Positions 11,282-25,486 of a DNA stretch of 64,000 bases are shown here, in pieces; the first letter of the stretch is position 1; each line of letters begins with the position of its first letter. The position numbers were made by a program, and so were the translations under genes. Source of the DNA: Bacteroidetes bacterium MED-G17 (GTDB lineage: Bacteria; Bacteroidota; Bacteroidia; NS11-12g; UBA9320); the NCBI GenBank assembly GCA_002457675.1, contig NTKK01000002.1, forward strand, positions 124,001-188,000, written 5' to 3'. The notes under the pieces are model-generated. The model made no database searches and was not told the DNA's origin. It was given only the letters and a program-made list of their open reading frames with translations.

Positions 11282-12185
11282 AAAAATAGCATATTTTCAG
11301 GCCTACAAGGAACATCTTCATTTTGAGCGAGGGCTCGCATCCAACACAAGTTCTGCATATATAAAAGATGTAGAGAAGTTTCACCAGTATATGGAGCAGC
11401 AGCAATTAAGTATAAGTAAAACGGATCTGCAAGTGGTTCAAAGTTTTATTGTCTATTTGGCTGACTTATATATTGGTGCAAGGTCCATTAATAGAATTGT
11501 ATCAGGTGTTATTGGTTACCTAAACTTTGTTTCAGAGATTTCAGATTTGCCCAATATTTCATTCGATCTCTTGGATCGTCCCAAAATGGGAAAAAGATTG
11601 CCAGAATCATTGAGCAACAAACAAATAAATAAGATTATTTCATGTGTTGACTTAAGTTCCAACTTTGGACATAGGGACAAGGCTATACTAGAAACGCTTT
11701 ACAATACAGGGGTGCGGATATCTGAATTGACTTCTCTGAAGGAAGATGATTTGTTCGAAAAAGAAGGTTTGCTGAAAGTAACAGGCAAGGGCAACAAGCA
11801 ACGCATAGTCCCTATTGGAAGCAATGTGGTGCAGTCTATTGGTTATCAAAGGCATGTTCGAATCGAAAAGAATCAAAAATTCAATAAAAGACTAAACCCC
11901 ATGTTTGCTAACAAATTCGGCAATCCTATCAGCAGAAATTACTTGTTTTCTCGACTGAAAAGCTTGGCAAAAGCTGCGGGAATTGAACAAGCTGTGAGTC
12001 CACATGTCTTTAGACATTCTTTTGCAACCGCTTTACTTGAAGGTGGTGCGGATTTAAGATCAATTCAGAGTATGTTGGGGCACGTATCCATCAGTACAAC
12101 CGAGATGTACTTGCACACAAATACGGAACAACTTAGACTGGTCATGGAAAAATATTTTCCAAAGTCTTTAGCCAATATTGGCTAG
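11271..12185 (+). CDS. xerD: tyrosine recombinase XerC/XerD
   Basis: A site-specific recombinase that resolves chromosome dimers at dif. The N-terminal SAM-like core-binding domain (about 1-95) is followed by the catalytic domain. All catalytic residues are visible: Arg in TGVRISEL, Lys in VTGKGNKQRIVP, HxxR in SPHVFRHSF, His in LGHVSISTTEMY and Tyr in the same block. Its length of 304 aa matches Xer proteins rather than integrases of mobile elements, and no attachment sites flank it. The start is TTG at 11271, inside the end of the previous gene. XerC or XerD cannot be separated by eye. The stop overlaps convergently with psd by 18 bases. Confidence 0.88.
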   Translation: MNNKKIAYFQAYKEHLHFERGLASNTSSAYIKDVEKFHQYMEQQQLSISKTDLQVVQSFIVYLADLYIGARSINRIVSGVIGYLNFVSEISDLPNISFDLLDRPKMGKRLPESLSNKQINKIISCVDLSSNFGHRDKAILETLYNTGVRISELTSLKEDDLFEKEGLLKVTGKGNKQRIVPIGSNVVQSIGYQRHVRIEKNQKFNKRLNPMFANKFGNPISRNYLFSRLKSLAKAAGIEQAVSPHVFRHSFATALLEGGADLRSIQSMLGHVSISTTEMYLHTNTEQLRLVMEKYFPKSLANIG

Positions 12186-21387: not shown

Positions 21388-24204
21388 ATGCCATTGAATC
21401 CCAACTTAAATTCTGTTCTTATTATCGGTAGTGGTCCAATCATTATCGGCCAAGCTTGTGAATTTGATTATTCCGGCTCGCAAGCCGCCCGATCTCTCAA
21501 AGAGGAAGGACTCGAAGTTACCCTAATTAATTCCAATCCCGCCACTGTGATGACAGATCCAATCATGGCGGATTATATTTATTTAAAACCGTTAACCATC
21601 AAGTCTCTTGAAGAAATTTTACATGAGAGAAAAATTGATGCGGTATTGCCAACTATGGGCGGTCAAACAGCACTTAATTTGGCCATGGAAGCAGATGAAG
21701 TAGGACTTTGGAAAAAGTATAATATTGAAGTTATAGGCGTTGGAACAGATGCTATTGAAACAACTGAAAATAGAGAGGCATTTAGAAAATTAATGAACAA
21801 AATAGGCGTTCCAGTGGCACCTGCAAAAATTGCCAATTCCTATTTAGAAGCTAAAGAAGCTGCTCAAGAGTTGGGCTTACCTGTTGTGGTTCGTCCATCG
21901 TATACTTTAGGTGGTTATGGAGGTGGAATTGCATACACTAAAGAAGAATTTGAAACAGTTGCTTCAAGAGGTTTAAACGCTTCCCCAACACACGAAATAT
22001 TGATTGACAAAGCAGTTTTTGGATGGAAGGAATTTGAACTGGAACTTCTTCGAGATCATAAAGATGATATTGCCGTTATCTGTACCATAGAAAATATGGA
22101 TCCAATGGGCATTCACACAGGAGATTCTGTAACTATTGCTCCAGCCATGACATTGAGTGACACAGCATTTCAAAAAATGAGAGATTATGCTTTCAACATG
22201 ATGCGCTCGATTGGTAAGTTTTCTGGGGGCTGCAACGTACAGTTTGCTTTAAATCCAGATAATGAAGACGTAATTGCCATAGAAATAAACCCACGGGTTT
22301 CTCGTTCATCAGCATTGGCCTCTAAGGCAACGGGTTACCCGATAGCTAAAATTGCAAGCAAATTGGCGCTTGGCTATGCCTTAGATGAATTGAAAAACCC
22401 AGTTACAAAAACTACTTCTGCTTTTTTTGAACCTGTAATAGATTATACAGTTATAAAGGTTCCACGTTGGAACTTCGAAAAATTTCCGGGAGCAGATTTG
22501 TCTTTAGGCTTACAAATGAAGTCAGTAGGAGAGGTCATGGCAATTGGAAGAAGCTTTACAGAAGCCATTCAAAAAGCGGCACAATCCATGGAAATTGGTC
22601 GTGCAGGATTGGGCTTAGATTACAAAAGCAACAAAAACCTTGAGGAGGTGTTGGAAAAACTTAAAAACCCCGGAGCTGACCAAATATTTATACTTAGAGA
22701 TGCCATGGCTTTGGGCGTTCCGATTACAAGTATTCAAAACATCACCAAAATAGATAGATGGTTTCTAGAAAAAATTTACAGCATTGTAAAAATGGAAAAA
22801 GAGCTTGCAAAATTTAGTGTTCAAAACATAGATAGAGCGTTGCTTAAAAAAGCCAAACAAATGGGTTTTTCAGATCTACAAATTGCCAATGCTCTAGGAC
22901 AATGCACAGAAGAAGACTTAAGGGCCAAACGAAAAACATTAAACTTGATTAGAGGTTACAAAATTGTTGACACCTGCGCAGCAGAATTCCCATCTGATAC
23001 CAATTATTTTTATTCAACTTATGATGGGGAAAATGAATCAAAACCTTCGGATAAACAGAAAGTTGTTGTAATTGGGTCAGGTCCCAATAGAATTGGACAG
23101 GGAATTGAATTTGATTACTGTTGTGTACATGGTGTATTGGCTTCCAAAGAGTGTGACTTTGAAGCAATAATGGTCAACTGTAATCCAGAAACTGTAAGCA
23201 CAGATTTTGATATTTCCGACAAGTTATATTTTGAACCAATCTTTTGGGAACATCTTTTGGATTTGATTGAATTTGAAAAACCCTTCGGTGTAATTGTACA
23301 ACTTGGTGGCCAAACAGCACTCAAATTATCTCAAAAGTTAAGTGATCACGGAATCAATATTCTCGGCACTTCTTTCGAAGCAATGGATTTAGCAGAAGAT
23401 CGGGGACGTTTTTCTGATTTCCTTAAAGAACTTAATATACCTTATCCAGATTATGGTGTGGCCAATTCTGCAGAAGATGCACTAGAAATTGCCAATCGCG
23501 TTGGGTACCCAGTTTTGGTAAGACCTAGTTATGTGTTGGGCGGTCAGGGCATGAAAATCGTTATCAACGATGATGAATTGCAATCTTGGGTATTAAAACT
23601 TCTTTCAGATATGCCAGACAATCAGATTTTGATAGATCACTTTTTAGATAGGGCGGAAGAAGCAGAGTCAGACAGTATTTGTGATGGAGAGCAAGTATTT
23701 ACAATGGGCGTTATGGAACATATAGAACCAGCTGGCATTCATTCGGGGGATTCATCTGCCGTATTGCCTCCGTTTAGCTTAAGCGAAAATGTTATCAAAC
23801 AAATTGAAACCTATACACAAAAAATTGCCAAAGAAATGAATGTATTGGGCTTGTTAAATATTCAATTTGCTATCAAAGATGAAAAGGTATACGTGATTGA
23901 AGCCAACCCTAGGGCGAGCCGAACCGTTCCATTTATTTGTAAAGCTTATCAAGTACCTTATATCAATTATGCCGCAAAAGTTATGTTGGGTAAAAACAAA
24001 CTTTCAGATTTTGACTTGCGTCCAAAACCGCAAGGATATGCAATAAAAAAGCCAGTTTTTTCATTCAATAAATTCCCCAATGTAAACAAACAATTAGGTC
24101 CTGAAATGAAATCAACTGGAGAGTCCATTCTATTTGTAAATAGCACCAAAGATCCTGAGTTTAGAGAAATCTATAAAGAAAAAAGTATGTATTTGAGTAG
24201 GTAA
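21388..24204 (+). CDS. carB: carbamoyl-phosphate synthase large subunit, without the C-terminal MGS domain
   Basis: It makes carbamoyl phosphate for pyrimidines and arginine, with CarA supplying ammonia. Two homologous ATP-grasp halves are visible. The first begins GSGPIIIGQACEFDYSG and the second GSGPNRIGQGIEFDYCC near residue 570, and each carries the VVRPSY or LVRPSYVLGG nucleotide-binding block. The protein ends about 940 residues in, after KSTGESILFVNS, whereas E. coli CarB has 1073 residues. The missing part is the MGS-like domain that binds UMP and ornithine. The ATG at 21388 is preferred because homologues start just before the NSVLIIGSGP strand and a -7 box precedes it. carA is not in the window. 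Confidence 0.94.
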   Translation: MPLNPNLNSVLIIGSGPIIIGQACEFDYSGSQAARSLKEEGLEVTLINSNPATVMTDPIMADYIYLKPLTIKSLEEILHERKIDAVLPTMGGQTALNLAMEADEVGLWKKYNIEVIGVGTDAIETTENREAFRKLMNKIGVPVAPAKIANSYLEAKEAAQELGLPVVVRPSYTLGGYGGGIAYTKEEFETVASRGLNASPTHEILIDKAVFGWKEFELELLRDHKDDIAVICTIENMDPMGIHTGDSVTIAPAMTLSDTAFQKMRDYAFNMMRSIGKFSGGCNVQFALNPDNEDVIAIEINPRVSRSSALASKATGYPIAKIASKLALGYALDELKNPVTKTTSAFFEPVIDYTVIKVPRWNFEKFPGADLSLGLQMKSVGEVMAIGRSFTEAIQKAAQSMEIGRAGLGLDYKSNKNLEEVLEKLKNPGADQIFILRDAMALGVPITSIQNITKIDRWFLEKIYSIVKMEKELAKFSVQNIDRALLKKAKQMGFSDLQIANALGQCTEEDLRAKRKTLNLIRGYKIVDTCAAEFPSDTNYFYSTYDGENESKPSDKQKVVVIGSGPNRIGQGIEFDYCCVHGVLASKECDFEAIMVNCNPETVSTDFDISDKLYFEPIFWEHLLDLIEFEKPFGVIVQLGGQTALKLSQKLSDHGINILGTSFEAMDLAEDRGRFSDFLKELNIPYPDYGVANSAEDALEIANRVGYPVLVRPSYVLGGQGMKIVINDDELQSWVLKLLSDMPDNQILIDHFLDRAEEAESDSICDGEQVFTMGVMEHIEPAGIHSGDSSAVLPPFSLSENVIKQIETYTQKIAKEMNVLGLLNIQFAIKDEKVYVIEANPRASRTVPFICKAYQVPYINYAAKVMLGKNKLSDFDLRPKPQGYAIKKPVFSFNKFPNVNKQLGPEMKSTGESILFVNSTKDPEFREIYKEKSMYLSR

Positions 24205-24314: not shown

Positions 24315-24688
24315 ATGACTGGTACCCCAAGTACCTACCAACACCTACAGGATGTATTTGGTGTGGTAGACGAAATGAATGCCAATAAATTTGCTTCTTA
24401 TTTTCACCTTCTGCACAATTTATTTTTGGAAACGCTCCTGCCGCAATTGGGCCAGAGAATATTGCGGAAATGGTAGCTCAGTTTTTTGGTGCTATAAAAG
24501 CCATAAATAATGTAAATCTCCAAATGTATGAGTTGGATAATTTCTATCTGGTTCGTGGAGAGGCCAAATACACGCGTCATAATGGAAGTGTTCTGCAGGT
24601 TCCATTCGCAAATACCATTGCATTAAACGATCAAGGCTTAATTACTGGCTACCAAATTTACATAGACAACACAGAACTCTTTCAATAA
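24315..24688 (+). pseudogene. SnoaL/NTF2-like gene broken by a one-base frameshift
   Basis: From the ATG at 24315 the frame reads a typical SnoaL-like start (VDEMNANKFASYFH) and then runs into a stop at 24474-24476. The rest of the fold (AQFIFGNAPAAIGPENIAEM and on to IDNTELFQ) continues in another frame to 24688. The break is at about 24405-24410, where CACCTTCTG would need one more C (CACCCTTCTG) to restore a 124-residue protein. No slippery heptamer is visible, so this is a mutation or an assembly error, not programmed frameshifting. SnoaL-like proteins are small barrels used as enzymes or ligand binders; the substrate is unknown. The open frame from ATG 24470 alone is only the C-terminal part. 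Confidence 0.75.
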
Positions 24689-24736: not shown

Positions 24737-25486
24737 GTGATTGACATAGAGAATGTACTTAAACCAAGAATTGATGCGCTAACGAGCCATTCGATTTACC
24801 AAAAGATGCAAAGCCTAGAAAGCATCAAGAAATTTACCGAATGGCATGTTTTTGCTGTTTGGGATTTTATGAGTTTGGTTAAGTTTTTACAAAATGAACT
24901 TACCTGTGTAAAAGTGCCATGGAGCCCTCCGCAAAATCCTGAAGTAGCAAGATTTATTAACGAAATTGTTTTCGGCGAAGAAACCGATATTGATGGCCAA
25001 GGGTCACCCAAAAGTCATTTTGAAATGTATTTGGAAGCCATGGTTGAACTGGGCGCGTCCAACAAAAAAATCCAGCAATTTTTAGACGCCTTACAATCTG
25101 GAATGTCCGTAGAACAAGCGCTAGAGATTAACCAAGTTCCAAAAGCTGTAAGTGTGTTTGTAAATTTCACTTTTGCTTGTATTGAAAGTCAAAAAGCGCA
25201 TGTGGTCGCAGCAGCATTTGCTTTTGGAAGAGAAGGAATCATTCCAGATGTATTTACAGAAATTTTGGAAACATCTGCTGGTGGGAAGGAGCGTTATTCC
25301 AAATTTATCTATTACATAGAAAGGCACATTGAGGTAGACGGTGATTCACACGGGCCACTTTCGATGAGAATGATTGAGCAACTGTGTGGTCACGATGAAA
25401 CCAAATGGAAAGAAGCACTAGAAACGGCAGAGAAGGCCGTGGAGGCTCGACTCGCCCTGTGGAACGCAATTGCAGACAATTTGTAA
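24737..25486 (+). CDS. DUF3050 protein (heme-oxygenase-like fold)
   Basis: 249 residues matching the DUF3050 family, an all-helical heme-oxygenase-like fold that in several relatives holds a di-iron or heme site. The candidate metal ligands are in TEWHVFAVWDFMSL near residue 35, SHFEMYLEA near residue 93, REGIIPDVFTEI near residue 172 and YIERHIEVDGDSHG near residue 195. Start is GTG at 24737, in the spacer after the SnoaL-like gene; the two may form a unit. Related enzymes oxidise small substrates, but no activity can be assigned here. Confidence 0.75.
   Translation: MIDIENVLKPRIDALTSHSIYQKMQSLESIKKFTEWHVFAVWDFMSLVKFLQNELTCVKVPWSPPQNPEVARFINEIVFGEETDIDGQGSPKSHFEMYLEAMVELGASNKKIQQFLDALQSGMSVEQALEINQVPKAVSVFVNFTFACIESQKAHVVAAAFAFGREGIIPDVFTEILETSAGGKERYSKFIYYIERHIEVDGDSHGPLSMRMIEQLCGHDETKWKEALETAEKAVEARLALWNAIADNL

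Follow-up and report, generated by a model that had tools for sequence, protein, structure and literature searches.

Two short open reading frames overlap on one strand of the window, by which we mean the whole stretch of 64,000 nucleotides analysed here, and they raise the question of whether they are the remains of a single gene that is one base short and, if so, whether the base is missing from the organism or only from its sequence record. The original prediction had read the locus as a SnoaL-like gene split over two frames that a single added C near position 24407 would rejoin. The window belongs to a 1.67-Mb draft genome in 17 contigs, with a completeness of 99.04, and the gene lies at least 69 kb from either contig end.

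The locus and its reading frames

The upstream frame (24315-24476) encodes 53 amino acids and then stops, while the -1 frame is open for 99 codons (24389-24685) before a TAA that ends at 24688; at the given base composition an open stretch of this length, taken singly, has a chance of about 0.0013. Both halves lie on the same strand in different frames, which overlap at 24389-24476. The downstream part has no ATG, GTG or TTG start before 24470, where an ATG in the -1 frame opens an ORF of 72 amino acids. The coordinates of the parts are collected in Table 1.

Table 1. Parts of the split SnoaL_2-like gene in the coordinates of the window
Feature	Position	Strand	Remarks
Upstream part of the SnoaL_2-like gene	24315..24404	+	from the start codon as far as the last residue resembling the family; profile positions 4-25
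Junction, net one base too few	24402..24412	+	profile positions 25 and 27; four-T run at 24401-24404
Out-of-frame tail of the upstream frame, to its stop	24405..24476	+	codon signal negative
Downstream part of the SnoaL_2-like gene, -1 frame, stop included	24407..24688	+	family profile 27-118

On its 5' side the broken gene is preceded by a gene ending at 24204, which we take from its sequence to be carB, and on its 3' side it is followed by a DUF3050 gene (24737-25486). The adjoining DUF3050 gene matches its protein family at E 1.1e-98 and bears a sub-threshold likeness to Haem_oxygenas_2; of 37 other genomes in the taxonomic family, 24 contain a match to it. The presumed carB and three other neighbours in the window were not found within about 1.5 kb of DUF3050 in any of the nine relatives' loci checked, and none of the window neighbours, DUF3050 among them, was found at 13 loci of SnoaL_2-like homologues. 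Since the neighbours turned up neither near DUF3050 nor near the homologues, gene order gives no hint of function.

Homology across the junction

A profile built from 12 unbroken homologues was run on the 1387 stop-to-stop pieces of at least 25 amino acids found in the six frames of the window. The downstream piece ranked first of the 1387 (91.5 bits for its best stretch, E 2.9e-27, profile positions 27-118). Next came the upstream piece, at positions 4-25, with 10.2 bits and E 0.044; this score is under the HMMER inclusion threshold, and the weak match has the strand, the place and the profile position that were expected. Profile position 25 falls on codon 24402-24404 and position 27 on codon 24407-24409, and between the two one residue is expected and two bases are present. 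Two bases where three are expected amount to a net loss of one base, which the alignment places between 24404 and 24413 while leaving undefined which base it is. The predicted shortfall of one base near 24407 therefore stands, as does the claim that one added base would join the halves, which follow each other in order along the profile; the naming of that base as C was a guess, since the alignment fixes the net change only.

In each of the 12 homologues that were read, from the phylum but outside the class, one open frame runs uninterrupted across this position. The break is therefore no property of the family, and the homologue naturally carrying such a break that would have told against the prediction did not appear among them. 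A 13th homologue outside this set (L015, 27% identity), which a separate tblastn search did not recover, is listed as open, with 142 amino acids and no stops. Relative to these 12 intact homologues the frame is disrupted, as in a pseudogene. Judged from the sequence, the break is confirmed, and 24315-24688 contains the two halves of one SnoaL_2/NTF2-like protein in different frames.

The family assignment follows the same pattern. Against Pfam SnoaL_2 (PF12680) the downstream half scores 22.1 bits (E 2.4e-4), under the gathering cut-off of 27 bits, the upstream half has no match to this model, and a six-frame scan of the genome itself reaches 24.7 bits, again under the 27-bit cut-off; neither half alone attains it. 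The three intact homologues scanned all lie above the cut-off (46.1-64.4 bits), and both halves align in order to the one homologue profile, as expected of a SnoaL_2 member, the upstream half weakly (E 0.044). The SnoaL-like fold of the prediction is upheld by the Pfam model, the homologue profile and these intact homologues taken together. By homology the split gene is taken to be the remnant of a SnoaL_2 member, an assignment of descent and not of function; whereas intact homologues in SnoaL_2 occupy one frame, here the gene is split over two. A profile of the downstream half and seven homologues also matches solved NTF2-like structures, limonene-1,2-epoxide hydrolase included, at E 1.5e-8 and weaker, and the best structural match spans profile positions 6-114 of 120. 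The relation of the downstream half to this enzyme and to other NTF2-like chains is distant, and the limonene epoxide hydrolase match would indicate an NTF2-like fold only, with no activity claimed.

Codon signal and residue conservation

The codon signal changes sign at the junction in both frames, being +5.6 bits in the upstream frame to 24404 and -4.6 bits beyond it, and -2.7 bits in the downstream frame before 24407 and +16.7 bits from there on; a hexamer model gives identical signs for both. The original prediction had credited the halves with good codon use, and this holds in so far as the signal is positive for each on the family side of the junction; in the upstream half the signal is weak (4.5-5.6 bits across 30 codons). 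A genome-wide scan for codon signal did not list the locus, so that homology is stronger evidence for the break than codon use.

Compared with the 12 homologues, the downstream part keeps 12 of 14 family-invariant and 7 of 17 nearly invariant residues, the other ten of the latter being changed, and the upstream part keeps both of its invariant residues and none of four nearly invariant ones. The two changed invariant residues of the downstream part are H and T in the family, and their change may reflect decay or divergence. With the invariant residues kept and coding signals on either side of the junction, the break should be either young or not real. The recent event that had been proposed agrees with this conservation and with the codon signals, and so does an intact gene in the organism with one base missing from the record through an isolated assembly or consensus error. 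We rank such an error second among the explanations, possible rather than probable. It is favoured by the downstream part, which is well conserved, as in a living gene, by codon use that is still coding-like, by the draft state of the 17-contig genome and by searches that turned up neither an independent sequence of the species nor a second genome of its genus. Against it, the one-base runs near the junction are short (four and five T), and frame breaks proved to be rare in a census of the genome, with a sensitivity of 121 in 150.

Frame breaks elsewhere in the genome

For this census, the 1008 ORFs of at least 100 amino acids (some of them spurious) that a family relative yields in 1,035,299 bases were compared with the genome of the window. 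At E 1e-10 or better 694 of them were matched, covering 221,614 codons; this number includes 28 that a longer ORF shadows. Two frame-broken pairs were found among the 694, one in a ComF-type gene and one at locus L044. The L044 pair, which no longer ORF shadows, was discounted as non-coding on the sole basis of four in-frame stops in its first piece. As a control, one random base was removed from each of 150 matches, taken from the 654 that are free of stops, and the census detected the loss in 121 of them. The small number of breaks and this control together imply that the assembly is not generally ridden with indels. In-frame stops occur in 40 of the 694 best matches; 22 of these are shadowed by a longer ORF, as spurious antisense or overlapping frames, and of the 18 unshadowed ones 11 have stops near the match ends only and seven have interior stops. 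Given these seven, damaged genes may outnumber the count.

The broken ComF-type phosphoribosyltransferase gene lies on the minus strand of locus L107 (G000:C15:100001-111899, about 5655-5012), in two frames and net one base short; in the family relative G016 it is one intact frame of 231 amino acids. Its downstream piece matches comF at E 4.8e-19, under the cut-off of that model, and Pribosyltran above the cut-off, whereas neither of two libraries gives an accepted match for its upstream piece.

The codon-signal scan covered 1,667,979 bases and returned 33 weak candidates, from which the broken SnoaL-like gene is absent; having missed this gene, the scan must be insensitive for short genes. 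When the first 12 of the 33 were inspected by eye, the ComF-type pair alone was clearly two parts of one protein, and ten appeared, on this inspection only, to be adjacent genes or stray frames. The twelfth, at locus L040 (G000:C13:1-20000, about 11518-12122 on the plus strand), looks like fragments of two genes without evident relation that meet at about 11853-11865. The first is a frame of 115 amino acids that ends in a stop, and the second, of 89 amino acids, continues with a coding-like codon signal. Neither fragment has an accepted Pfam match, and the junction may have arisen by deletion or by a misjoin.

Recoding or separate genes as unlikely alternatives

A frame transition within a gene may also be functional, with ribosomes shifting by -1 in the overlap 24389-24476 to produce the full protein. 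Such a shift has the direction needed for joining the halves, both frames stay open in the overlap and a run of T stands at 24401-24404. No slippery heptamer of the form X XXY YYZ, however, is found in the upstream-frame codons of 24390-24471 (eight half-matches, none with both triplets), and the RNA of 24405-24480 folds like its shuffles (z 0.13, with 108 of 200 shuffles at least as stable, in a test that covers pseudoknot-free structures). Nor is the frame transition conserved among the homologues, which are unbroken and all distant (27-47% identity). Slippage at the T-run further downstream (24423-24427) was also considered, but it would skip family residues, which the -1 frame retains from 24407-24413 onwards, and it was rejected for this reason. 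The absence of a canonical heptamer, the ordinary RNA fold and the fact that the break is not shared make programmed frameshifting unlikely, and we would give recoding in the overlap very little credence. It would be just as surprising if -1 slippage at the T-run of about 24401-24404 still gave a single protein from the gene, the run then serving as a minimal and non-canonical site of recoding peculiar to this lineage.

A survey of clustered frame transitions in prokaryotes (Antonov et al., 2013; PMC3711429) counts 146 recoding clusters beside 4010 pseudogene clusters, and these figures set a low prior for recoding. Like the cases reported there in large numbers, the transition described here lies inside one protein family. 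No frameshift position is conserved in the homologues read, so nothing groups it with the recoding clusters of the survey.

Even less credible, by a little, is an arrangement without any break, either as two separate small genes or as a protein of 72 amino acids started at the ATG of 24470. That ATG does open an ORF in the -1 frame, but the likeness to the family extends 5' of it to 24407 and then goes on in the other frame, the product would be without the first part of the fold, and none of the 12 homologues read consists of the downstream part only.

Distribution of the gene

The gene is present in its own genome at a single locus only, with no further copies. No homologues were found in 57 relatives at E 1e-3 (a set that overlaps those of the order and class), in 107 other genomes of the order at E 1e-5, or in 394 other genomes of the class draw at E 1e-5 (a set that overlaps that of the order), so these searches offer no close relative for the comparison that the original prediction had called for. 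In a draw of 395 genomes from the phylum, 13 of the 394 others match at E 1e-5 or better, with 27-47% identity, and these homologues lie outside the class. Eight records of a plasmid collection match as well (29.5-35.2% identity), five of them from Vibrio, and seven of the eight are annotated as nuclear transport factor 2 family protein. Searches with a single protein as query, which find close relatives only, gave 13 peptide-pattern matches among viral contigs and 49 in a species-level genome collection, none of which was confirmed. The distribution of the SnoaL-like gene is patchy: the other genomes of order and class that were searched gave no match, whereas other parts of the phylum and plasmid records of Vibrio did. 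This suggests horizontal gain; probably the gene was either acquired from a source outside the class or lost from almost the whole class.

A probable recent loss of a dispensable gene

The reading that we consider most likely, and on balance probable, is that a dispensable, patchily distributed gene has been recently and genuinely inactivated. On this view a net deletion of one base at about 24402-24412 would have struck a single-copy SnoaL_2/NTF2-like gene, which would now be a young pseudogene in the sequenced strain or in a population consensus. Translation from 24315 would lose the family sequence after about 30 residues and run to the stop at 24476, and the remaining 93 codons would still carry most of the invariant residues but have no start before 24470, for which reason no complete fold would be made.

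The 12 invariant residues kept out of 14 in the downstream part are as expected of a recent loss; counting against a real loss are the remaining two, the ten changed among the 17 nearly invariant residues downstream, and the failure of the codon scan to list the locus. The choice between loss and error, which the original prediction had put as a clonal variant or an assembly error, draws further on the census, as the rarity of other breaks speaks against a generally error-ridden assembly, and we lean towards a real loss. Random errors would fall mostly in conserved core genes. Both clear breaks of this genome, in contrast, lie in genes judged dispensable or patchy, the SnoaL-like gene because it was not found in the other genomes of order and class searched, and the ComF-type gene because ComF serves DNA uptake; this argument, a statistical one, favours real loss. 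The break itself, its position to about ten bases, the unbroken homologues and the small number of other breaks are observed; a real loss, as opposed to an error, and the dispensability of the gene are inferred.

The feature is an ordinary frame-broken accessory gene of little wider interest. The rarity of frame breaks in the genome supports the quality of the assembly, and for annotation the locus is better described as one disrupted gene than as two small ORFs, one more frame-broken accessory gene in a Bacteroidota draft genome.
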